Source: Candidatus Cryptobacteroides intestinigallinarum
GTDB lineage: Bacteria > Bacteroidota > Bacteroidia > Bacteroidales > UBA932
Length of the DNA stretch: 48,496 nucleotides
Assembly: GCA_017694785.1 (NCBI GenBank)
Contig: JADIMK010000038.1
Location: 1-48,496 of the forward strand
Direction: 5' to 3'
A program made the translations under genes and the position numbers. The notes under the pieces are model-generated. The model was not told where the DNA came from, ran no database searches, and saw nothing but the letters and a program-made list of their open reading frames with translations. Shown here piece after piece: positions 24,135-36,260 of the stretch (position 1 is its first letter; each line of letters begins with the position of its first letter).

Positions 24135-25775
24135 ATGGATATGAGAAACTATTTCAGATGGATCAGGCTTGCTTCCGGCGGCAACAGGACGGCACTTGCC
24201 GTCTACTGCAGCATCAATATCATACGGGCGCTGCTGTCTCTGGCATTCATATGGTGCACAAAGGTCCTGGTAGACATAGCTACCGGACATTCCGGAAAGG
24301 ACCTGACAGTGTTTCTCGGGCTGTGCATCGGAGCCATGGTCCTGCAGACAATACTCTCCCCCATTGCATCAAGACTCTCATCAAGGACCGAAATACGCAT
24401 AAGGAACAGACTCCGCTACATCCTATTCATAAGAACAATGGAAAGCACCTGGCAGGGAAGGAATGCCATGCACACCGGTGATATCATGAACAGGATCGAG
24501 TCCGATGTCAGTTCTCTCACATCTGTAGTATGCAGGACTATCCCGTCCTTGGCGACAGTAGTCATCCAACTCCTCGCTGCCATCTATCTCATGGCAAGCA
24601 TGGACCTCAGGATACTGGTCTGCACCATATTCCTCATGCCTGCGGCACTTGCCCTCAGCAAGAGATATTTCCGCAGGATACGCACGCTCAACAGGGAAAT
24701 CCTTGACTCAGGCAGCAAGGTACAGGCCCACATGCAGGAGAACATCCAGCACAAGACCCTGATAACAACAATGGAAATGGTGCCTGAGATATCACGGCAG
24801 CTGTCCTCAGGCCAGAAGGACCTTGAAAGACAGGTGATGCAGAAGACAGACTATTCCCTGTTCTCCAGGACAGTTATACAGGCAGGCTTCGCCGCCGGAT
24901 ATCTGACGGTATTCGTATGGTGTATCTTCGGACTGCTTCACGGGACAATGACATTCGGGACAATGACGGCATTCCTCCAGCTGGTATCCCAGATACAGAA
25001 GCCGATAGTCGACATAGGCCGCATGTTTCCGGCAATGGTACAGACTTCATCGTCTGCAGAAAGGCTTTCCGAAGTCTACGACCTGCCTCAGGAAAGGCAT
25101 GAATCTGACATAAGATTCAACGGCAAGACAGGAATCCGCCTTCAGGACATATCTTTCGCCTACAAGGACGGGCACACGGGAAACGGGAACGGATATGTAA
25201 TAGAGGGACTGAGCCATGACTTCAGGCCAGGGAGCATCACAGCCATTACAGGAGCGACCGGAGCAGGAAAGAGTACAATCATAAGACTCATCCTTGCACT
25301 CGTGCACCCCGACAAAGGAGAGATAACATTCTACAACAATGAAATGTCAGCACAGGCATCGGCAGACACCAGGTGCAACGTGACTTATATCCCTCAGGGC
25401 AACAGTCTGATAAGCGGCACCATCAGAACGAACCTCCTGCTCGGCAACCCGGATGCCTCTGAACAGGAGATGAGGACAGCCCTGCACAACGCCGTCGCGG
25501 ACTTTGTCCTTGATCTGACTGCCGGACTTGACACAGTATGCTCCGAATCAGGCAGCGGACTCAGCGAAGGCCAGGCACAGAGGATCGCAATAGCTCGTGG
25601 ACTGCTGCGGCCTGGAAAGATACTCCTCATGGATGAGCCGACTTCAGCCCTTGACCATGACACTGAGCAGACTCTATTGTCCAGGCTCGCAGCCAACAGA
25701 TACGGCAAGACCATAATAATAGTAAGCCACAGCCACAGTGTAGAGGAATTCTGCGACGATGTCATCAGAATCTGA
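24135..25775 (+). CDS. ABC exporter, fused permease and ATPase
   Basis: This is a half-transporter of 546 aa with an N-terminal six-helix exporter-type membrane domain (about residues 15-310) and a C-terminal nucleotide-binding domain. The Walker A motif GATGAGKS lies at about 373-380, the signature LSEGQ near 475, the Walker B ILLMDEP near 495-501, and a switch histidine in IIIVSHSHS. No C39 peptidase domain is present. Substrates of this class include lipids, lipid-linked oligosaccharides and peptides. The downstream S24/S26 peptidase overlaps the end of the gene, which points to a peptide or small protein. The EPS locus shows no Wzx, so a role as lipid-linked oligosaccharide flippase (PglK-like) is an alternative. 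Substrate unknown. Confidence 0.88.
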   Translation: MDMRNYFRWIRLASGGNRTALAVYCSINIIRALLSLAFIWCTKVLVDIATGHSGKDLTVFLGLCIGAMVLQTILSPIASRLSSRTEIRIRNRLRYILFIRTMESTWQGRNAMHTGDIMNRIESDVSSLTSVVCRTIPSLATVVIQLLAAIYLMASMDLRILVCTIFLMPAALALSKRYFRRIRTLNREILDSGSKVQAHMQENIQHKTLITTMEMVPEISRQLSSGQKDLERQVMQKTDYSLFSRTVIQAGFAAGYLTVFVWCIFGLLHGTMTFGTMTAFLQLVSQIQKPIVDIGRMFPAMVQTSSSAERLSEVYDLPQERHESDIRFNGKTGIRLQDISFAYKDGHTGNGNGYVIEGLSHDFRPGSITAITGATGAGKSTIIRLILALVHPDKGEITFYNNEMSAQASADTRCNVTYIPQGNSLISGTIRTNLLLGNPDASEQEMRTALHNAVADFVLDLTAGLDTVCSESGSGLSEGQAQRIAIARGLLRPGKILLMDEPTSALDHDTEQTLLSRLAANRYGKTIIIVSHSHSVEEFCDDVIRI

Positions 25776-25791
25776 CACAAGGAAGAATGAT

Positions 25792-26223
25792 ATGGAAGAC
25801 AGCCTGAAGATACCGAATATAGACCTTCTGGAAGAATGCATGGAATTGCTTGATGAAGGGAAGACTGTCCTGCTTACAGCCAAAGGCAGCAGCATGCATC
25901 CCTTCATCAGAAACGGAGAAAAGATTCTCCTGCAGAAAAAAGAAAGCTACCGAAGGGGTGACATCGTACTGGCAAGGACAGACAACGGGACGACTGTTCT
26001 GCACCGCATAATCAGAACAGGTAACGGCACCGCAACACTTATGGGAGACCGCAACCTCCGGAAAAAAGAGAAATGCCCCTCATCAGGAATCAAGGGCAAG
26101 GTAATATCAATCTCTGGAAAGAGAGGCATCCGCCTCACCTCATCATGGAGGCACAGATGTCTATCAGCGATATGGCTATGCCTGATTCCCGTACGCAGGT
26201 TACTGGTCAAATGCTTCTGCTGA
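25792..26223 (+). CDS. Small S24/S26-family peptidase (Ser/His type)
   Basis: The product is related to signal peptidase I / SipW-type proteins. The nucleophile is the Ser of GSSMHPFI (S34 from the ATG used), and the general base position is His in TVLHRII (H71), as in ER/SipW-type enzymes rather than the Lys of bacterial LepB. MGDRN downstream is also conserved. There is no N-terminal membrane anchor; a short hydrophobic segment (SAIWLCLIPVRRLLV) is at the C-terminus. The frame is open to an ATG at 25759 overlapping the ABC gene by 17 nt. The ATG at 25792 (143 aa) has AGGAAG 6 nt upstream and is preferred. It probably trims a peptide handled by the ABC exporter; that role is inferred. Confidence 0.75.
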   Translation: MEDSLKIPNIDLLEECMELLDEGKTVLLTAKGSSMHPFIRNGEKILLQKKESYRRGDIVLARTDNGTTVLHRIIRTGNGTATLMGDRNLRKKEKCPSSGIKGKVISISGKRGIRLTSSWRHRCLSAIWLCLIPVRRLLVKCFC

Positions 26224-26429: not shown

Positions 26430-28694
26430 CTATTTGTCCCAGCTTTCAGAACGTGTGACAGGTCTGACTACAGCACCGGTTGCCGATGCGGACTTCTTAT
26501 GCAGAGCAAACTTGAAGTTGTTGTCCACGATTGTCTGTATAAGACTTGCCGTGCCGTATTTCTGGCCTGACTCCGGCAGATTATCAGCAAAATTGAAAAA
26601 GATGAGTCCGAGCGAAGCGTTCTCCGATCTTTCCTGGAGCTGACGGACGGCGAAAGGAGCCATTTCCAAAGTAAGGTCTATAATACCTTGTGAACTTGGG
26701 TCTCTGCTGTAAGAACCTCCTACAAAAGAGCCTCCCAGGTCGTTCATGAACCACCACGAGTGATCATATCCAGGCTCGTTGTATTTATTCACACTAGATG
26801 TGAACAGAGCTTCGGCATACTGTTTCTTATAGTTGATATCAACCTTACCGTCAGGTCCATCTTCACCAGCCCCACTTCCTGCGACACCGACTGATGTGAC
26901 TTCCTGATAGAGCCATTTCATTGATGAAGAGTTCTGGACTGAAGAATTCGGAGAGCCCCAGCTGAGAGGCACTCCCTCAGGAACATAAGCAACATCCCAC
27001 AAAGAAAACAGACAAGGAATACCTGCCGATGCTGAAATCTTGTTTCCCATTCCTGGCGAGTTGAAATTTGCCTTGAGGATAATCTTGCCCTTTACATCAT
27101 CGATGGTAGTCTGAGGCGTTATCTCATCGGTATATATCCTAAGTGCAGACTTTGATTTTAGATTATTGATAGAATACTCAAGAGTCCGAATCCAGGCTTC
27201 TTCTGTATTTAACTGAGCCCACCCTTCATTATCAGTAGTACCGCCATCATAAGTAAGCTGTACAAACACATACTCATATTCCTTTCCCTTGGTCTCTGCT
27301 TCTGTCAGAGCATCGGAAAGTATTTCCAAAATTGTCTCCAAAGAATAATTATTCAGTCTTTTGCCATCAACGCATGCATAAAGTTCACCGCTCCGGAACT
27401 GAGGGTTAAAAAGATTATTACCTGCATCATACAATGCACCTGTCTGAATGATGAATGCACGGACGCCTGCCTGGAACTGATCTTCAATAGACGCATTCTG
27501 ATATATTACATTAGAGCCATTGGCCTCTGTAAGCATGGACATCTTGCTGCCCGGAAGGGAAAGCTCTGTGATATAGATGTCAGGATCGAGAGAATCCTGC
27601 CAGTAGTTCGTACCGCCGGTCTTCACATAAGGCAGAGAGACCCTGTTGACCTTGTGTGCAAGTATCTGGCCTGTCTGAAGGGTCTTGACAAGGTTTTGGC
27701 TGTTGACTGGAGATACAGATACCTGGAGAGTCTGCACTTCAAAGCCGTCGTCGTTAGGAAGAAGGTATGCATGCAGAACAAGCTTGTCACCGGGACCGAG
27801 AGATATATAGTCTCCCGTCTCCTCATTATAGCATGATATGGTGATCCTGTTCCTGACTTCATTGAGATTGCCGGCTACGTCACATTCCGGATTAGCACCC
27901 TGCTGTGTCCCGTCCTTGACAGGGTTGAAATCGCACTTGAAATCACCGGTAAGATATATGTTCTGCCCGGCTCCGTCCGGATCCACGGCATTGACATTTA
28001 TGCTGGATATCTTCACCGGCGACGAATTCTCAGTTGGACCGTTAACGGTGATCTCCAGGATAGTATTGAGCGGATGGAAAGTCAGAGGGACATCAGTACC
28101 TTCAGGAAGTACAGATTTGTCAACCTGTGTATATGCCCACATATAGGCATAATCAGTGTTGGCAATGCCTCTTATGACACGGTTTCCGTCAGCATCGACA
28201 GATTCCTCAAACCTGACCGGATCCTGAAGGACAGGCACTGAAGCATAGATCAGACCGTCTCCGTCAACCCCAGTCACGGCAGATGCCGGATAGAAGCCGT
28301 AGAAATCATGGATATCCGTCTGCCCCCACTGCAGCCCGGTATCCCCAGTCTTTGTGACAGATGCTGAAGTATTTGTAGGATTTCCTTCTGTATCGACAGC
28401 AGGCGTAACCTTGTAGTCTGAACGGACTGTATTGCTGGACTGAGGGCAATATACAGCTATATAATCATCATTGTCCCAATATACGGGATAGTACCTGTTT
28501 CCTGTCTCCGGATCTGTCAGTATCTCGTCCCCATATATAGTGCGTGTCTGCACATTGCCGGGAAGAGAAGATCCGAACGTGATCTCGTCCCCTGTCTCGA
28601 CAGGCACGAACGACTCCTTTACCGAACATCCGGCAAGCCCGGATATCACAATAACCGGAAGAATTATATACCTTGGATCTATAAACTTTCTCAT
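26430..28694 (-). CDS. Fimbrillin-like lipoprotein fused to a PI-PLC-like domain
   Basis: The 754-aa protein has a lipobox ending at C23 (GLAGC). The N-terminal half (about residues 30-360) resembles the Mfa-like/fimbrillin family: TRTIYGDE, YYPVYWDNDDYIAVYCP, WGQTDIHDFYGFYPAS, LTFHPLNTILEI and GQILAHKVNRVSLP. The C-terminal half (about 370-754) follows the order of elements in PI-PLC X domains: ITELSLPGSKMSM, IEDQFQAGVRAFIIQTG, LETILEILSDAL, KGKIILKANF and a late SLWDVAY. The first catalytic His of true enzymes (PGTHDS) is Lys here (PGSKMS), and the RAFD-R element reads RAFIIQ, so phospholipase activity is unlikely. It probably acts as a surface adhesin or binding protein. It follows the 63-aa gene by 12 nt, at the end of the EPS operon. 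Confidence 0.75.
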   Translation of the reverse strand: MRKFIDPRYIILPVIVISGLAGCSVKESFVPVETGDEITFGSSLPGNVQTRTIYGDEILTDPETGNRYYPVYWDNDDYIAVYCPQSSNTVRSDYKVTPAVDTEGNPTNTSASVTKTGDTGLQWGQTDIHDFYGFYPASAVTGVDGDGLIYASVPVLQDPVRFEESVDADGNRVIRGIANTDYAYMWAYTQVDKSVLPEGTDVPLTFHPLNTILEITVNGPTENSSPVKISSINVNAVDPDGAGQNIYLTGDFKCDFNPVKDGTQQGANPECDVAGNLNEVRNRITISCYNEETGDYISLGPGDKLVLHAYLLPNDDGFEVQTLQVSVSPVNSQNLVKTLQTGQILAHKVNRVSLPYVKTGGTNYWQDSLDPDIYITELSLPGSKMSMLTEANGSNVIYQNASIEDQFQAGVRAFIIQTGALYDAGNNLFNPQFRSGELYACVDGKRLNNYSLETILEILSDALTEAETKGKEYEYVFVQLTYDGGTTDNEGWAQLNTEEAWIRTLEYSINNLKSKSALRIYTDEITPQTTIDDVKGKIILKANFNSPGMGNKISASAGIPCLFSLWDVAYVPEGVPLSWGSPNSSVQNSSSMKWLYQEVTSVGVAGSGAGEDGPDGKVDINYKKQYAEALFTSSVNKYNEPGYDHSWWFMNDLGGSFVGGSYSRDPSSQGIIDLTLEMAPFAVRQLQERSENASLGLIFFNFADNLPESGQKYGTASLIQTIVDNNFKFALHKKSASATGAVVRPVTRSESWDK

Positions 28695-28970: not shown

Positions 28971-31355
28971 TCACTTTTCGTGACTTTTCCCTGTTTTTTC
29001 TCCGTAGCCGTAGCCGTAGCCGTATCCATATCCATAACCATAACCATAGCCGTAACCATAACCATAACCATAGCCATGACGGCTCATGTCAACGCCGTTC
29101 AGAAGAATTGCCATGTTGGAAAGTTTCCGGTCAGTATACATCTTCTCCACATCAGGAAGCTGCCGCCTGTCCATCCTGCCGGCACGGATGACAAATACGG
29201 TAAGATCCGTGACCCTGTTGACAATGGCTGCGTCAGCGATAATGCCAGCAGGGACACAGTCAACTATAATATAGTCGTATCTTTCACGGAGCTTGCTGAA
29301 AAGCTCATCAAGCCTGCTGTCCATAAGGAGTTCAGTCGGATTCGGAGCAGGAGTCCCGGCAAGTACGATGTCCGGGCCGTCCGATCTCAGGCGCAGGATA
29401 TCATCGATTGCCAGATCCCTGTTCGCCAGATAATCCGTGACTCCATAATGGCCATAGTTGAAGAATTTCGACAGTGATCTTTTTCTGATGTCGAGATCGA
29501 CAAGCACGACCTTCTTCTTGGCATAGACAAGACTGTATGCGAGATTGATAGAGACGAATGTCTTGCCTGCTCCTTCGTTCATGGATACAAGTGTCACAAC
29601 CTGGCAGCCGTTCTGCTTCCTGAGCATAAAGGACATGTTCGTCCTTATGATACGGAATGCCTCTGATATGACATTCCTGGTCCCTTCTACGACGACAGGT
29701 ACAGACTTCCCTTCCTTGGACTTCAGATTCTTGTCATAAGGTATTTCCCCGATGAACGGAAGATCCACGATATCTTCAATATCCTTTCTCCTGTGGACCC
29801 TTGTATCAAGAGTGAGAATCAGCAGGAATACTACACACGGAAGGACCAGACCGGAAAGCAGTCCGAGGAAAAGGATCCTGCCCCTGTCCGGAGATATCGG
29901 AGACATGCTGCCGGAGGCCTCGTCAATGATACGGGCATTGTTGTCTGCCATTGCCTGAGCCAAAGCATTTTCCTCTCTTCTGTTGAGAAGGAACATGTAG
30001 AGGCTCTCCTTGATCTTCTGCTGTCTTTCTATTGAAAGCATCTCCCGCTGCTGTGTCGGTATGGATGTCATCCTTGACTGTGCCCTCTGCTCACGGCTTC
30101 TGGCATCATTCAGACGGACATTCAGACTCACGACCATATTGTCCACAGCTCTGATTATGCTCTGCTTCATCGCGCGAAGCGAATTGTTAAGTTCCAGCAC
30201 CACAGGATTCATCTCGCTGCTGTCGTCTATCAGCTTGTCCCGCCTGAGCTTCACAGCATTGTATTGAGATATTTGGGATTCGATGTTCATATCATTGATT
30301 CCCGTATTTGCCGGAAGGAGATCCACCTCCTTGGAAGGATCAGAAAGATAGTCCTTGATATAGTCCGCCAGTTCAAGCTGGGTCTCAAGTTCAAGGACAT
30401 CGGTATTGTATTTCTGTGCCTGCTGGATATAGATGCCTGAAGTCGTCCCCATGTCGACCACCTGGTTGTCTTTCTTGAAGAGCTCAAGGTCAGACTCTAC
30501 CGAACCCAATTCCTTTTCTATGATGATGAGACGTTCATTGATGAAATCCGCAGTATTGATCGCCACCTGGTTCTTGTCGTTGATAGCTTCCTCGTTGTAG
30601 ACTGTTATAAGCATGTTGAGCACATCCCTAGCCCTGACCGGAGACTCATCTTTCAACGACAGGTTAAGTATCGAAGACTCCTCTCCTTCCTGACGGATCC
30701 CGAAATTGGCTCTATACCATGCGACCATGGAGTCAAGAGGTCGTTTCTCTACATGGATTTCCTTGCCTTTCCAGGAATTGTTGTAATAGTTGGTCACACC
30801 GAATACGGCGCGGATCCCGTTGCCTATCTCCAAGGTGTCCGCGACATGCACACCCACACGGCTTCTGCTATGCTTTTCACCGATCGATACCGTCATTGAA
30901 TCGGGTCCTGCAGGGACAACCGTCATCACTGCACGGCTCTGCGGCTCTGCATCCAGGAAAGTCACTGTCACAGGAGACTGGGTATAAAGTTCACGGTAGC
31001 GGAGCTTGTCATCTACTCTGTAGCTGACATCAGCGTGGACTCTCTGTATCACTTCACGGAACAGTTTCTTTGACTTGAACTGCAGTATTTCATTGGATAC
31101 ATTGACCCTGTTGATGAGATTGTCATACCTGTCGAGGCTTGCCGTTGTAGTCTTGTTGGAAGGGTCCTTAATTATCACCGTGGCTGAAGAATAATAAATG
31201 AACGGCCGGCTTGCATAATACACCCATGCCAGAAGACCGAATACGGCAACCGAAAGTACTATCCACCTCCATTTGGAAAACAGATAGAACACGATGTCAA
31301 GGACATTGACCCCTGACTGGGCTTTATCGTTTCTGTTTTTTGCTGACATATTCAA
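28971..31355 (-). CDS. Wzc-type chain-length determinant and BY-family tyrosine autokinase
   Basis: This inner-membrane co-polymerase/BY-kinase controls EPS chain length and export. The 794-aa protein has TM1 at about residues 31-51, a Wzz periplasmic domain with long coiled-coil segments (about 250-430), TM2 at about 505-527, and a cytoplasmic kinase domain. The Walker A form NEGAGKT lies near 588-595, Walker A' (VVLVDLDIRKR) near 612-622, and Walker B (YIIVDCVPAG) near 690-700. The C-terminal tyrosine cluster, the autophosphorylation site in this family, is here an uninterrupted Gly-Tyr alternation at residues 761-785 with 12 tyrosines, then EKTGKSHEK. Neighbours are the Wza-type gene 18 nt upstream and the small-peptide gene downstream. 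Confidence 0.94.
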   Translation of the reverse strand: MNMSAKNRNDKAQSGVNVLDIVFYLFSKWRWIVLSVAVFGLLAWVYYASRPFIYYSSATVIIKDPSNKTTTASLDRYDNLINRVNVSNEILQFKSKKLFREVIQRVHADVSYRVDDKLRYRELYTQSPVTVTFLDAEPQSRAVMTVVPAGPDSMTVSIGEKHSRSRVGVHVADTLEIGNGIRAVFGVTNYYNNSWKGKEIHVEKRPLDSMVAWYRANFGIRQEGEESSILNLSLKDESPVRARDVLNMLITVYNEEAINDKNQVAINTADFINERLIIIEKELGSVESDLELFKKDNQVVDMGTTSGIYIQQAQKYNTDVLELETQLELADYIKDYLSDPSKEVDLLPANTGINDMNIESQISQYNAVKLRRDKLIDDSSEMNPVVLELNNSLRAMKQSIIRAVDNMVVSLNVRLNDARSREQRAQSRMTSIPTQQREMLSIERQQKIKESLYMFLLNRREENALAQAMADNNARIIDEASGSMSPISPDRGRILFLGLLSGLVLPCVVFLLILTLDTRVHRRKDIEDIVDLPFIGEIPYDKNLKSKEGKSVPVVVEGTRNVISEAFRIIRTNMSFMLRKQNGCQVVTLVSMNEGAGKTFVSINLAYSLVYAKKKVVLVDLDIRKRSLSKFFNYGHYGVTDYLANRDLAIDDILRLRSDGPDIVLAGTPAPNPTELLMDSRLDELFSKLRERYDYIIVDCVPAGIIADAAIVNRVTDLTVFVIRAGRMDRRQLPDVEKMYTDRKLSNMAILLNGVDMSRHGYGYGYGYGYGYGYGYGYGYGYGYGEKTGKSHEK
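29001..29075 (-). repeat. Hexanucleotide repeat encoding (Gly-Tyr)12-Gly in the Wzc-type kinase
   Basis: Seventy-five bases encode 25 residues alternating Gly and Tyr. On the minus strand the unit is GGN TAY, with third positions varying between copies, so the tract is a degenerate hexanucleotide array. Slippage by whole units would change the number of tyrosines while keeping the frame. Confidence 0.9.
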
Positions 31356-31373: not shown

Positions 31374-32189
31374 TCATTTATCGGGGAATATTCCGATGGC
31401 GTTACCGGCCCATATGAATGAGCAGATAGCCGTCAATGCAGACAATACCATTGTACCGATCTGCCATCCCCTGTCCTCAGCATCACGCTTGATGTATCGA
31501 GGCTCCACATATATCACATCGTTCTGCTGCAGGTAGTAGCATGGAGATGTGAATACATCTTTTGTCCTCAGGTCAGCGACATACATTTCCGCATCGTCTC
31601 CGACATTCCTGATCACAGCGACCTTATCCACACGGGCATTGACAGCAAGTCCGCCGGCCTGTGCAATGGCTTCAAAAAGAGTCACCTTGTCTCCATCCGA
31701 ACTGAATGTACCCGTTCTGGACACGGCACCGATCACAGTATATCTGAAATTGAGGAACTCGATGGATACCAGAGGCATCTTCATGTAGTTGCCTTCCTGT
31801 ATCTTCTCCTTTATGAGTTCTGTAGCCTGGGAAACCGTAAGTCCTTCCAGGTGCAGGCTCCCGAGTATCGGGAAGTCGATGTTTCCGTTTGCATCCACCC
31901 TGTACCCCTTTTCCTCCGAAATGGGCCCGGATGAACTTACGCTGCCGTCAGCTCCGACATTGATGCTTCCTCCGTGGACATTGAACGGAATGGCCAGTTC
32001 AGGATTTCTGCTGCTGCTCACCGCTATGTCCAGCCTGTCGTCTTTCATGATGACAGTCTCGTAACTCATGTCCACAGGATACTGCTCACCAGGAAGCATG
32101 TCCTGGAGATAGATATAATCCTTTGTGGCAGTACATGATGCCAGAAGCAATGTGACAGACAGGGCAATGAATGCCAAATGTTTTTTCAT
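31374..32189 (-). CDS. Wza-type polysaccharide export lipoprotein
   Basis: This is an outer-membrane polysaccharide export protein. The ATG at 32189 gives 271 aa starting MKKHLAFIALSVTLLLASC with the lipobox ending at C19; the frame extends seven codons further up without improving the signal. A Poly_export domain (KDDRLDIAVSSSRNPELAIPF, GNIDFPILGSLHLEGLT) is followed by an SLBB-like domain (YTVIGAVSRTGTFSSDGDKVTLFEAIAQAGGL). A hydrophobic helix near the C-terminus (WQIGTMVLSALTAICSFIWAG) matches the membrane-spanning helix of Wza. It is cotranscribed with the Wzc-type kinase gene 18 nt downstream. Confidence 0.94.
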   Translation of the reverse strand: MKKHLAFIALSVTLLLASCTATKDYIYLQDMLPGEQYPVDMSYETVIMKDDRLDIAVSSSRNPELAIPFNVHGGSINVGADGSVSSSGPISEEKGYRVDANGNIDFPILGSLHLEGLTVSQATELIKEKIQEGNYMKMPLVSIEFLNFRYTVIGAVSRTGTFSSDGDKVTLFEAIAQAGGLAVNARVDKVAVIRNVGDDAEMYVADLRTKDVFTSPCYYLQQNDVIYVEPRYIKRDAEDRGWQIGTMVLSALTAICSFIWAGNAIGIFPDK

Positions 32190-32216
32190 GATATGATTGT
32201 ATTTGTTCAACTTATT

Positions 32217-33158
32217 TCAAGATTCAGATATCTGCTGCATACCGCATGGGACGGCTGATTCAAGCGCAGAACGGCAGATTGTTGCCGCCTCCGCATCAGG
32301 AAGGCATTCCATCAGACCTATCCCGACCTTTTCCGAAATGCAGGCAAGGGTATCGCACAACGGACTGAACAGATGTCTGTCGCGTCTTATCGCCGAACTG
32401 CCCCTGAGCAGCATTGAAAACGCTGCAGCTCCATCCAAGGGTACGAATATGTTGCGGTCTGCCCTCCTTATCCCGGCTATACCCTTGACAGGACACCCCA
32501 TATTCCTGTAGCAAGGAGTCTTTCCGCTCCAAGGGGTGCCGTAGGCCATCACCAGATTGTCTTCTATGCGCAGCACAGGATTGTCATCGTTAAGAAGAAA
32601 ACTTCCTGCGATATTCTTCAGCCATAAGGAAGAATGTGTGCTCTTTCCCGCTCCGCTCTTCCCCATGAACAGGTATGAATACAAATCCCGCCCGGTCCGA
32701 ACGGCTACTGCAGAGGCATGGACAGCAACCGCCTGATGCCTTATGATTGACTGGGAAAACGCTATACGGAGCATCGAGCACAATGCGCTTGCCGCATACC
32801 GGCTTTCAATGGAAAGGACTATCTTCACATCTGAAAAATCCTCCGAAGCATACATGGTATGTACACAGGAGCCGTTATGCGGCCTCAACCGTACAAGATA
32901 ACCATCGGCCGTACGGTACAGGGCGCTGTATCCCATCTCATCTGAAATCTCATCCATAGCCATCCGGGAGCATGAATCTTCTTGCCTCCGGTCTTTTTCT
33001 TCTGTCATACAAGCGTCGAGGATATGGTGACAGCCGCCATCATCAGCCGCTTTGAATCTTCTGAATGAAGGCAGCATGGCATCCGGATCATATCTGTCAG
33101 GAAGAGACAGGGACAGACAGAATCCCGCAATCCTGTATGTGTATGTTCTGTCTTTCAT
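32217..33158 (-). CDS. HprK-related P-loop kinase-like protein
   Basis: The 313-aa protein resembles the C-terminal half of HPr kinase. The P-loop FMGKSGAGKSTHSS lies at about residues 163-176, followed by LLNDDNPVLRIED (the acidic strand that holds metal in this family) and YGTPWSGKTP. There is no HPr in the neighbourhood, so it is not the catabolite-control enzyme. Similar HprK-like kinases occur with a PqqD-like protein in EPS/exosortase loci and, with a nucleotidyltransferase, in paeninodin-type lasso peptide clusters, where the kinase phosphorylates the peptide. Here it overlaps the nucleotidyltransferase gene by 4 nt and precedes the Wza-type gene. Its substrate is not known. Confidence 0.82.
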   Translation of the reverse strand: MKDRTYTYRIAGFCLSLSLPDRYDPDAMLPSFRRFKAADDGGCHHILDACMTEEKDRRQEDSCSRMAMDEISDEMGYSALYRTADGYLVRLRPHNGSCVHTMYASEDFSDVKIVLSIESRYAASALCSMLRIAFSQSIIRHQAVAVHASAVAVRTGRDLYSYLFMGKSGAGKSTHSSLWLKNIAGSFLLNDDNPVLRIEDNLVMAYGTPWSGKTPCYRNMGCPVKGIAGIRRADRNIFVPLDGAAAFSMLLRGSSAIRRDRHLFSPLCDTLACISEKVGIGLMECLPDAEAATICRSALESAVPCGMQQISES

Positions 33159-34249
33159 CTTGCAGACTGTCCTCCCAGAAGGCCGGCCAATATCCAGAAC
33201 GTTTCACCCGCAGCAATCGGGAACGACAGCCCGGCATTTTGAATGAAAGCTGATAAGGTATGCATTTTACGTCTGACGGAAGATTTCCTGTCATTTTCCC
33301 GTCCATGCCTGAACCTGCCGAAATTCCCGCCATCCATGACAGCGCTGAGTATGCGTCCGTTTCTTGAGGGATCTGTTTTCCTGTATGGAAGCCACCTTTC
33401 ATCGAGTCCCAGGTACTCCACCATGAAGGCATTCACAACCTGGAACCATCTTCCCATTCCGATTCCATCCGCATCCCTGATGAATTCTTCTGATGAGATC
33501 TTCCCAGCATGGGCCTTCACACAGCAGGCCATGTCACAGAATTGCCTGAGGCCTATGCCCCTTCCGGCGAGATGTTTGAAAATATGTGAGCCGACAAGCA
33601 GAATCTCAAGTCCGGGAGAAGGGACAGTCAGACCTGGTCCTTCGGTATCCTCCAGACGGGCCGCCACAAAGCCATATCTGGCTATTAGATCTTGAATGAA
33701 TCGTCTCCGTCTCGGATCGTATATGTCAAGCAGCTGACGGTGGTGCTCAACAGTAATTCCGTTCCAGATGTAAAGGGAACTGCCGTCCGCTCTCCCATTT
33801 ATATGTATTCCTCTTCGGGACATGATCTCCAAAGCTGCCTCACTGTCTTTCCTGTCATTGAAAAACCAGTCAATATCGCCGCATTCCCTCAGATGTGGTT
33901 CATTGTATAGCCGGGCAAGTCCCTGGCCTTTCTGCAGCACCGGATGGAGGCCTGCGGAGGCGAAGATGGAGTTGATCTGTGATACAGCCTTGTCCATCAG
34001 GCAGTTCTTTTTTTCTATGGCAGCCGCATGTGCCGTCCATTCCATGAGCAGCTTTGCAGCCGGCAGGAATTCTTCAGGCAGATAGTGCAGTCCCCTCCAG
34101 ACAAGAGCCTCAACAGACTGACGGGAGGAAAGTACCATTACCTTCTGCCATTCCTCTTCCGTAAGAGGAAAGGAAACAAGTCCGTCCACATCGCGTTGCC
34201 AAAGCCCGGATCTGAGAAGAGAAAAGAATGCAGAAGTCACTCTGTCCAT
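33155..34249 (-). CDS. Nucleotidyltransferase family protein (NTP_transf_5-like)
   Basis: The 364-aa protein carries the family pattern KGQGLARLYNEPHLRECGDIDW at about residues 104-128, with the metal-binding pair D125 and D127 in GDIDW. Nearby YIWNGITVEHHRQL and LEILLVGSHIFKHLAGRGIGLRQFCDMAC are also typical. The reaction is unknown for most members; some act with HprK-like kinases on lasso peptides. It overlaps the PqqD gene by 13 nt and the kinase gene by 4 nt, so the three proteins are almost certainly made together. Confidence 0.85.
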   Translation of the reverse strand: MDRVTSAFFSLLRSGLWQRDVDGLVSFPLTEEEWQKVMVLSSRQSVEALVWRGLHYLPEEFLPAAKLLMEWTAHAAAIEKKNCLMDKAVSQINSIFASAGLHPVLQKGQGLARLYNEPHLRECGDIDWFFNDRKDSEAALEIMSRRGIHINGRADGSSLYIWNGITVEHHRQLLDIYDPRRRRFIQDLIARYGFVAARLEDTEGPGLTVPSPGLEILLVGSHIFKHLAGRGIGLRQFCDMACCVKAHAGKISSEEFIRDADGIGMGRWFQVVNAFMVEYLGLDERWLPYRKTDPSRNGRILSAVMDGGNFGRFRHGRENDRKSSVRRKMHTLSAFIQNAGLSFPIAAGETFWILAGLLGGQSAR

Positions 34250-34509
34250 ACGAGTCCATATCTAATCCAGATATCCAGTGTCTCCTTGACGTCAGCCAGA
34301 GCCGTCTCCATATCCACCTCATATTCCTCACATAGCCATCCGGCAAGCTGTTCAGGAGTAAAATCTGTTCCTTCAGCCTTTTTCCATAGCCATGCTGAAG
34401 TCTCATTGAGAGAAAAAACATCTGTCAGGTCTGTATCAGGCCCTGATACCCTCACCACTATGCTATAGGGACCTATTTCCCTGAGTTTCAAATCTTCGTT
34501 AAGCCTCAT
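34237..34509 (-). CDS. PqqD-family peptide-binding protein
   Basis: The 90-aa product has the PqqD fold pattern: an N-terminal beta hairpin (REIGPYSIVVRV), DVFSLNETSAWLWKKAEG at about residues 30-47, then FTPEQLAGWLCEEYEVD and a final helix ending in a YGLVW segment. PqqD-type domains (RiPP recognition elements) bind the leader of a peptide substrate and present it to a modifying enzyme. In this operon the partners are the nucleotidyltransferase and HprK-like kinase directly downstream. It starts 6 nt after the sugar-phosphate transferase gene. No radical SAM or ATP-grasp enzyme is present. Confidence 0.85.
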   Translation of the reverse strand: MRLNEDLKLREIGPYSIVVRVSGPDTDLTDVFSLNETSAWLWKKAEGTDFTPEQLAGWLCEEYEVDMETALADVKETLDIWIRYGLVWTE

Positions 34510-34515
34510 AGAGAA

Positions 34516-35148
34516 TCATATCTTTTTGCCGGACACCAGAGACCAGCCTGTTAATGCAATGATTTTCACATCCAGCAGGAAAGACTGTCTGCACAGATAG
34601 TCCAGATCCATATCGAGCCTGATGAGCATCTTTTCCATCGTGTCGGTATATCCGTTGTACAATGTAGCTTCTGAGAAAAGCCCAGGTCTGAGACTGTACA
34701 GATAACGGTAGTCCGGATTCCTTTTCATTATCTCATCTATAAAGCACTGTCTTTCTGGTCTCGGACCGACAAATGACATATCGCCCTTGAGTACATTCCA
34801 CAACTGAGGCAGTTCATCCACATGATGATCCCTGAGGAAGCGTCCTATCTTTGTCATCCGCTCATCATCCTCACTGCACAAAAGAGGCAGATCATCCTTT
34901 TCAGCATCAGGCACCATCGAACGGAACTTATAGATGATGAACCGCTTGCCCTTATATCCTATCCTTTCCTGACGGAAGATTACCTTGCCCTTATCTTCCT
35001 TCTTGATCAGCAGCATGATTATCAGACATGGCACTGCACATATAGCCATACTGATGATTGCCAATATTATGTCCAGGATACGTTTTACCACGGCATAAGC
35101 CGCATGCTCCCTGAATCTGTTGTCTTCTACAACCTGAAACTCTTTCAT
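34516..35148 (-). CDS. Initiating undecaprenyl-phosphate sugar-phosphate transferase
   Basis: This monotopic phosphoglycosyl transferase starts the EPS repeat unit by moving a sugar phosphate from a nucleotide sugar to undecaprenyl phosphate at the inner membrane. The start at 35148 gives 210 aa beginning MKEFQVVEDN and a 4-nt ATGA overlap with the preceding GT4 gene; the frame is open for 11 more codons. A membrane segment (IILAIISMAICAVPCLIIMLLI) is followed by FRQERIGYKGKRFIIYKFRSM, and then by DELPQLWNVLKGDMSFVGPRPE. It is the short form with only the catalytic domain. Sugar specificity cannot be read from the sequence. Confidence 0.93.
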   Translation of the reverse strand: MKEFQVVEDNRFREHAAYAVVKRILDIILAIISMAICAVPCLIIMLLIKKEDKGKVIFRQERIGYKGKRFIIYKFRSMVPDAEKDDLPLLCSEDDERMTKIGRFLRDHHVDELPQLWNVLKGDMSFVGPRPERQCFIDEIMKRNPDYRYLYSLRPGLFSEATLYNGYTDTMEKMLIRLDMDLDYLCRQSFLLDVKIIALTGWSLVSGKKI

Positions 35149-36260
35149 CTTGCCGTCATTTCTTCGTACAGTGACCTGCATTCCGCTATCATCCGGTCAT
35201 CTGTAAACATTGAATCAAAACGAGCTTTTGCCCTTTCGGAAAAACCTCTGTAGATCTCTTCTGATGACATTATCTCCATTATTGCACGAGCCAGCTCTTC
35301 AGCATTGCCTGGCTCTACATCCAGTCCCGAGATGCCATCGGCATTGACCCACGGAACTCCTGATCCCGGGATATCTGTGGCAACGACGGGCCTGCTGCAG
35401 GACATGGCTTCGAGCTGTACTATACCGAACGCTTCCGCCTTCTCTATCGAACTGAGACAGAACACATCACAGGCATTGTACCACGCCGGGATGTCTTTAT
35501 CGGGAATATAGCCCAGGAGCTCTACTTTACCGCTCAGACCTTCTCTTTCTATACGTCTGCTAAGAGACTTCATCAGAGGACCGGTCCCTCCGATAAGCAC
35601 CATATAGTCATCAGGAAGATATCTGGCCGCGTCCACCAGATATTCCTGTCCCTTGTAATGGATCAGCCGTCCCAGGCTGAATACAAGTATCTTTCCCGGC
35701 CAACGGGACCTTATCCCAGCTGCTTCGTCTGCGCATGCCGGGACAGGTCTAATCCCGATCGGGATGCACACAGTCTTGGAGACAAACGGATGCAGCTCAA
35801 CTGATGAGGAAATATACACCGGAGATGTCCCTACTATCCTGTCTGCCCGCCTGAGAAGCCAGCGCTGCAATCCTGAATAAAGCACCTTCAGCAGACGGCG
35901 CTTTATGATGTCACTGTGCCAGTGGAGGATCACCTTGCCTTTGTAGCCGGAAAGAAAAAGGGCAAGGCAGGCCATGGGATCAGGATGATGCACATGTATC
36001 ACATCATAGCGAGAACATCTTTTCCGCAGTTCGTATATGAGGGACGGTGATATCATTGTTGATGAAAATCTGAACCATGTCCTGCAGCATATAATCTTGG
36101 CATGAGGATTCAGATGCCGGATTCCTGATGCTTTTCCATATGCGGCACAGAGCATGTCACAGTCCGTCCCCGCTTCTGACAGGCCCAGCATCAGGTCATA
36201 CATCACTTTTTCGACACCACCCTTTATCGGGTAGAACTTGCCCAGCTGCAGTACTTTCAT
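35145..36260 (-). CDS. GT4-family glycosyltransferase (first of three)
   Basis: The 371-aa protein has a GT-B fold with the N-terminal glycine loop YPIKGGVEKVM, typical of GT4 retaining transferases, HVHHPDPMACL in the acceptor domain and a C-terminal E-x7-E motif (EAFGIVQLE). It is expected to add one sugar to the lipid-linked EPS unit on the cytoplasmic side of the membrane. It overlaps the sugar-phosphate transferase gene and the next GT4 gene by 4 nt each. The donor sugar is not determinable. Confidence 0.92.
   Translation of the reverse strand: MKVLQLGKFYPIKGGVEKVMYDLMLGLSEAGTDCDMLCAAYGKASGIRHLNPHAKIICCRTWFRFSSTMISPSLIYELRKRCSRYDVIHVHHPDPMACLALFLSGYKGKVILHWHSDIIKRRLLKVLYSGLQRWLLRRADRIVGTSPVYISSSVELHPFVSKTVCIPIGIRPVPACADEAAGIRSRWPGKILVFSLGRLIHYKGQEYLVDAARYLPDDYMVLIGGTGPLMKSLSRRIEREGLSGKVELLGYIPDKDIPAWYNACDVFCLSSIEKAEAFGIVQLEAMSCSRPVVATDIPGSGVPWVNADGISGLDVEPGNAEELARAIMEIMSSEEIYRGFSERAKARFDSMFTDDRMIAECRSLYEEMTAR

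Follow-up and report, generated by a model that had tools for sequence, protein, structure and literature searches.

A probable LPP-type gene set, with a 63-residue peptide as its likely substrate, in an exopolysaccharide locus of the Bacteroidales

Linear polyphosphorylated peptides (LPPs) were described by Popov et al. in May 2026 from the lppA-K-B-S-D-N genes of Paenibacillus alginolyticus (PMC13381572). According to the parts of that paper used here, the LPP core set consists of a PqqD protein, an HprK-like kinase, an NTP transferase, a SipW-type peptidase and an MsbA-like exporter. LppK phosphorylates Ser3 of the core several times, and LppS, assisted by LppB, cuts off the leader. The precursor leader has a motif similar to YxxPxVLxHQxIxFETxxS, with the Ser at +18. 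The paper terms LPPs 'restricted to the Bacillota' and their peptidase cluster 'predominantly' Bacillota, gives their role as unknown, and notes capsule-locus neighbours of the genes in Bacilli. We analysed a 48,496-nucleotide stretch of DNA, referred to as the window, from Candidatus Cryptobacteroides intestinigallinarum of the Bacteroidales (contig JADIMK010000038.1), in which three overlapping genes, the trio, lie within an exopolysaccharide (EPS) operon and encode a PqqD-type protein, an NTP_transf_5 protein and an HprK-like kinase. We think that the trio is likely (probability about 0.73), by analogy, to be part of an LPP-type gene set, with a nearby 63-residue protein, P63, as the likely substrate and with binding, phosphorylation, tailoring, cleavage and export as proposed below.

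The genes of the trio lie on the minus strand, at 34237..34509 (PqqD, 90 aa), 33155..34249 (NTP_transf_5, 364 aa) and 32217..33158 (kinase, 313 aa), with consecutive overlaps of 13 and 4 nt. They are flanked on the same strand by the gene for the initiating sugar-phosphate transferase of the operon, a Bac_transf protein of 221 aa (34516..35181; PF02397, E 3.5e-56), and by that for a Wza-type polysaccharide export protein (31374..32210; PF02563, E 1.8e-16). A first-pass annotation, made from the sequence alone, had described this arrangement, and we confirmed it. Of the families it had suggested, two were found by profile searches, PF05402 for the PqqD protein (E 1.3e-14) and PF14907 for the NTP_transf_5 protein (E 7e-38), while the kinase matched no family above cut-off in Pfam or NCBIfam and no curated HprK model. 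It had also pointed to HprK-related and PqqD families linked to exosortase or EPS loci, for which neither the kinase nor the PqqD protein had a match among the NCBIfam models at E <= 1.

The PqqD protein appears to be an LppB-like recognition element (RRE) for ribosomally synthesised and post-translationally modified peptides (RiPPs). In an alignment, its N35 and D73 correspond to the LppB (9x8z) residues N33 and D70, where the paeninodin protein PbaB1 (9x90) has Gly and Gln. In distinct relatives the Asn is found in 115/115 sequences and the Asp in 112/115. The earlier suggestion that the protein is a leader binder is supported. N33 and D70 of LppB hold the YxxP leader, and the same residues are present in many pyrroloquinoline quinone (PQQ) and lasso RREs (PMC13381572), so their presence is better evidence against the paeninodin type than for the LPP type.

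The kinase is, by analogy, HprK-like and LppK-like, judging from its motif residues and predicted fold. The His-Lys-Asp-Asp motif, a feature of HprK-like lasso kinases (PMC9266682), is conserved among its relatives (His147 126/126, Lys172 126/126, Asp191 125/126, Asp192 126/126). The predicted structure has a PEPCK-like fold; PEPCKs make up nearly all of the best 50 structure matches listed, and HprK chains are not among these. The NTP_transf_5 protein is considered LppN/PsmN-like, again by analogy. Its relatives keep D125 in 81/82 and D127 in 82/82 sequences. Its model, with a predicted local distance difference test score (pLDDT) of 89.7, had no PDB match at E <= 1e-3; the best matches, all of them weak (E of at least 1.7e-3), were to nucleotidyltransferases, the CCA-adding type among them. 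The review PMC9266682 describes PsmN of pseudomycoidin as either adding a hexose to phospho-Ser or acting before a host glycosyltransferase.

The typical tailoring partners of lasso peptides include a kinase, an NTP transferase and PqqD (PMC9266682, PMC7533575). The window shares with the paeninodin and pseudomycoidin systems (PadeK, ThcoK, PsmK, PsmN) the His-Lys-Asp-Asp kinase, PqqD (B1), the NTP transferase and an ABC exporter, and the parallel to paeninodin-type tailoring by kinase and nucleotidyltransferase, drawn in the first-pass annotation, holds to this extent. That the locus is itself a decayed or split paeninodin-type lasso-peptide cluster is, however, extremely improbable. The B2 protease (PF13471) had no match in the window genome. 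There is no clear macrolactam cyclase either: the two matches to Asn_synthase (PF00733; 20.8 and 22.8 bits) lie on other contigs, at too great a distance and with scores too low to look like the cyclase of this cluster, and we rejected a lasso cluster on these grounds. The RRE has Asn and Asp, not the paeninodin Gly and Gln, and the conserved Ser of the putative substrate follows the leader, whereas in the paeninodin and pseudomycoidin type it is at the C-terminus. The same cassette also recurs elsewhere, in named loci (see below) that were not scanned for a macrolactam cyclase.

The precursor candidate, P63 (28707..28898, minus strand), has a leader-like N-terminus, KKYIRM...GFMSAS. The first-pass annotation had included it as a modelling partner of PqqD, and its standing as a candidate substrate gained support, as P63 is the only leader-type match that we found in the window genome. 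P63 was not among the matches of our first leader profile at E <= 0.5; we assigned it to the leader-peptide family because its relatives P0123-P0127 share its type and carry YxxP. The P63 family has seven listed entries, including P63 itself and a near-copy, and the other five have YEAP or YMAP at the position of its YIRM (for example KKYEAPQT...VELEQGFMSASVFDP). Across eight aligned P63-type peptides Tyr6, GFM and Ser26 are invariant (8/8). Ser26, at +20 from the Tyr, is the predicted phospho-acceptor, and HQxIxFET was not seen in P63.

The first-pass annotation had reported that no processing partner was present, which is not supported, given a leader-peptidase candidate and an exporter at 24.1-26.2 kb, encoded on the strand facing the EPS operon by genes that overlap by 17 nt. 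The 154-aa peptidase (25759..26223, plus strand) is an S24/S26 signal-peptidase-like protein, putatively of SipW type, and a candidate LppS-like leader peptidase. It matched PF00717 over the cut-off (E 2.7e-10) and TIGR02228 at 34.5 bits, under that model's cut-off. Its relatives keep Ser45, His82 and Asp97 in 118/118 sequences and Glu104 in 116/118. The 546-aa exporter (24135..25775, plus strand), LppD/MsbA-like by analogy, carries ABC_membrane (PF00664, E 2.4e-26) and ABC_tran (PF00005, E 1.7e-28) domains. Fusions found at other loci tie the peptidase both to the exporter and to the kinase: peptidase and ABC exporter form one 746-aa open reading frame (ORF) in L032 (1716-3956), and in P0072 (436 aa) an S24 domain is joined to a kinase-family domain. 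Profile searches found a single kinase match and a single PqqD match in the window genome, which makes the split pieces natural candidates for one machine.

Analogy with LppA-K-N-B-S-D suggests the following sequence of events. The PqqD protein is the likely binder of the P63 leader at its N-terminus, and the HprK-like kinase would place a phosphate on the conserved Ser26. That phosphate would in turn be tailored by the NTP_transf_5 protein, an activity comparable to that of PsmN. The SipW-type peptidase is predicted to cut the leader off near the Ser, and the ABC exporter to export the P63 core.

The kinase is found in 253/300 genomes of the window's genus (E <= 1e-15; 106/118 of those of good quality) and also in Prevotella-like genomes, two of which are titled as strains, Prevotella sp. 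tf2-5 and Segatella baroniae DSM 16972. Using a kinase alignment, we fetched the best 80 of at least 536 confirmed kinase candidates, the named loci, which come from Bacteroidota and some metagenome-assembled genomes (MAGs) titled Fibrobacter, and scored locus contents by six-frame profile searches. Because several of the stretches are cut off where a contig ends, and because the profiles were built on the genus of the window and its close relatives, the partner counts are lower bounds. Counts for the 80 named loci were 74 (peptidase), 66 (PqqD), 59 (exporter), 28 (NTP transferase), 2 (Wzc) and 0 (Wza). Among forty later kinase loci (order sample 11, genus 29) the picture was similar (peptidase 39, PqqD 35, exporter 34, NTP transferase 8, Wza 1), as it was for the 36 left after removing four that share DNA with named loci (35, 31, 30, 7 and 1). 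Elsewhere, the set is one system. The usual partners of the kinase are the peptidase and the exporter, not the EPS genes to which the first-pass annotation had linked it, since Wza or Wzc was found in only 5 of 133 kinase loci (scored with our own profiles, some genomes being counted twice).

These counts bear on a different role for the trio, in which it would act in the polysaccharide pathway and transfer phosphate or a nucleoside monophosphate (NMP)-derived group onto a sugar or a carrier protein, with PqqD only as a tether. Such a role would fit the kinase-less PqqD-NTP pairs that lie beside Wza-Wzc in EPS loci of the genus (L049, L062, L070). The PF14907 EPS loci without a kinase have the same NTP family as the window, some of them with PqqD, and adjoin Wza-Wzc, but these stretches gave no kinase, peptidase or exporter. 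Given the near absence of Wza and Wzc from the named kinase loci, where peptidase, PqqD and exporter are frequent, and given the fusions linking the peptidase with exporter and kinase, we consider a polysaccharide role very unlikely.

The EPS setting of the LPP-type set is nevertheless conserved. The layout PqqD-NTP-kinase-Wza-Wzc-peptide-lipoprotein was observed in the window and in three more genomes with the same gene order, G347 and G344 of the same genus and G294 of another family, and the neighbourhood survey called for in the first-pass annotation therefore shows the trio recurring together in EPS loci of four genomes of two families. All four have the NTP transferase (4/4, vs 28/80 and 8/40 elsewhere), and in a tree of 125 kinases theirs group together as a single clade (100/100). 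That tree also places L117, a MAG named Candidatus Cryptobacteroides, within the rows of the window's genus, which is consistent with this genus name. In G294 peptidase and exporter follow the EPS layout on the same strand. In G344 (L233:6800-8870) the pair is located immediately behind an rpoC-like gene and, as in the window, on the strand facing the operon. Neither gene is on the G347 contig of 17 kb, while both flank the locus in the other three genomes. In the window about 14 kb separate rpoC from the exporter, with genes that we take to be GH3-like, SusC/D-like and hybrid-sensor-like. The fifth EPS neighbour, L180, has a kinase and a peptidase near Wza-Wzc in a different layout.

Leader-type peptides, small ORFs with the common N-terminus KK-Y-x-x-P followed by hydrophobic residues and a Ser, occur in 20/80 named loci. 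In 11 of those 20 a leader peptide lies within 600 nt of the NTP gene on the same strand, as in L086, with three in tandem. The fetched loci together gave 69 distinct peptides; YxxP is present in 67/69, and the Ser stands 18-22 residues past the Tyr, mostly 19 or 20, in 68/68 with a readable motif, counts that partly reflect selection by the search profile. Leader peptides also track the kinase. With leader alignment A3 and 294 genomes of the order sample, the window genome being left out, 5/7 leader genomes had a strong kinase vs 17/294 overall (Fisher 7e-6; 2e-6 without G329). A strong kinase was defined as E < 1e-30, which holds for 18/295 genomes, and 70/295 match at E <= 0.001, mostly weakly. 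No row of A3 occurs in the loci (as distinct from the whole genomes) fetched from G091, G147, G214, G266 and G294. With leader alignment A4 the figure was 9/12, the G281 match sitting in a 370-aa frame, but this result is partly circular because A4 includes peptides from G054, G091, G147, G214, G266 and G294. A wider leader alignment found peptides in 53/101 genus genomes. Precursor peptides of several Prevotella and Fibrobacter-titled loci (L078, L090, L093, L107, L134) share a D-x-LA-like C-terminal end.

Several points weigh against an LPP-type machine acting on P63. Exporter and peptidase of the window are encoded on the strand opposite to the trio. The acid of the peptidase may be Asp97 or Glu104, and the His-acid spacing is unlike that of LppS (His68, Asp93), and LppN proved inactive in the host used to test it (both from PMC13381572). 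Most kinase loci are without an NTP transferase gene, EPS neighbours are as rare as stated above, and the titles of nearly all named loci mark them as MAGs or uncultured. Both Asn_synthase matches were listed over that family's low cut-off of 21, one of them together with its neighbours. P63 itself has YIRM and not YxxP, and so its own leader is without the proline; in LPPs the change P-13A weakens binding of LppA to LppB (PMC13381572). The Tyr-to-Ser spacing of the leader-type peptides is mostly 19-20 rather than the 18 of LPPs, and they lack the FET that precedes the cleavage site in LPPs. Kinase and peptide are not always found together: G121 and G329 carry a leader peptide without a strong kinase, 12/17 strong-kinase genomes of the order sample are without a leader peptide at the test threshold, 48/101 genus genomes had no leader match, and 39/40 later kinase loci had no leader peptide in the fetched stretch.

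The missing proline and the 39 loci without a peptide would also be expected if the LPP-type machine acted on another peptide or protein and P63 belonged only to the lipoprotein encoded after it, as a small protein with, for instance, a regulatory or chaperone-like function. The fact that leader-type peptides are often alone with a lipoprotein gene, apart from the kinase, agrees with this. We nevertheless regard another substrate as rather unlikely, as P63 has no rival among leader-type matches in its own genome, a P63-type peptide lies beside the EPS-type machine in 4/4 genomes, leader peptides and kinase co-occur over genomes, and the five distinct relatives of P63 keep YxxP. P63 is thus the likely substrate of the trio.

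The gene for this lipoprotein (754 aa; 26430..28694, minus strand) starts 12 nt past the P63 gene. It has a lipobox by pattern and matched no Pfam family above cut-off. Relatives of the lipoprotein come after the peptide gene in L169 and L232 (491 and 458 bits). Its C-terminal half is presumably similar to a PI-PLC-type fold in which the active-site motif is altered. An ORF of at least 100 aa lies within 200 nt downstream of 56/69 peptides, and a lipobox (loose pattern) is present in 31/56 of these ORFs vs 137/709 background genes (p 2e-9). Ten such partner proteins, scanned with Pfam, do not share a family: one has Big_2, another LRR_5, and the remaining eight matched nothing. In G091 (L153-L161) 17 leader-type matches, one in a frame with a stop, are scattered over contigs, and 8/10 fetched peptides lie directly upstream of proteins of about 400-450 aa with lipoprotein-like starts.

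Scattered precursors beside lipoprotein genes, together with the conserved EPS form enclosing Wza-Wzc, point to a role at the cell surface. We conjecture that the exported peptide works there with the downstream lipoprotein and the polysaccharide. A far bolder idea, which we put forward as improbable, is that P63 is phosphorylated at Ser26 and the NTP_transf_5 protein, in the manner of PsmN, adds a sugar to this phosphate, so that the peptide becomes covalently attached to the exopolysaccharide while the exported core is held by the surface lipoprotein. P63 would then serve as a ribosomal linker between capsule and outer membrane, and the scattered peptides related to it would make up a general phosphopeptide-plus-lipoprotein surface system of Bacteroidales.

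The first-pass annotation had called the function of the trio one not described, which the LPP paper has since overtaken. Like the published LPP systems (PMC13381572), the sets found here combine an RRE, an HprK-like kinase, an NTP transferase, a candidate leader peptidase, putatively of SipW type, and an MsbA-like exporter; most candidate precursors, though not P63, have YxxP leaders ending in a conserved Ser and a variable C-terminus, no clear cyclase turned up in the window genome, and the capsule-locus neighbourhood is shared with Bacilli. Unlike those systems, they occur in Bacteroidota and in MAGs titled Fibrobacter rather than Bacillota, the leaders are without HQxIxFET, the NTP transferase is often missing, precursors are scattered in some genomes, often beside lipoprotein genes, and the EPS form has the gene set split around Wza-Wzc. 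The main text of PMC13381572 has 0 occurrences of the word start 'Bacteroid' and of the word 'lipoprotein', and passages of it mention neither scattered precursors beside lipoprotein genes nor an EPS form enclosing Wza-Wzc. Literature searches, judged by the titles and abstract starts of the papers listed, surfaced no LPP of Bacteroidota, and passages of a paper on RiPP mining in Bacteroidales (PMC10352776) mention neither S24 nor a nucleotidyltransferase. LPP-type machinery appears to range wider than published and has a conserved capsule-linked form. An LPP-like machine is present in many Bacteroidales, beyond the range described for LPPs in the parts of PMC13381572 cited here, and as related sets recur in many genomes of this order, their role is likely testable there.

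Among the other genes of the window, the Wzc-type chain-length regulator and tyrosine autokinase (28971..31355, minus strand; PF02706, PF13807, TIGR01007) closes with an extended (GY)n stretch; for the tail of an autokinase, such a Tyr-rich cluster is extreme. Nine further operon proteins were scanned. Six are glycosyltransferases (three group-1, one family-2, one family-11 and one family-8), and the others are an acyltransferase, a NusG-like protein and one without a family. PADLOC gave no match for five proteins.

Related gene pairs were seen in the genus outside kinase loci. L049, L062, L070, L068, L060 and L044 have PqqD-NTP_transf_5 pairs, with no kinase, peptidase or exporter in those stretches, and the first three are those that adjoin Wza-Wzc. 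In L070 and L068 a protein of about 134 aa beside PqqD is one that we take to be HAD-like. L039, L042 and L043 have ABC-NTP-PqqD-peptidase beside Wza-Wzc; the kinase is not in the stretch, and each genome has one kinase match elsewhere. The genes between this cassette and Wza-Wzc are presumably RNase H-like and PdxA-like.

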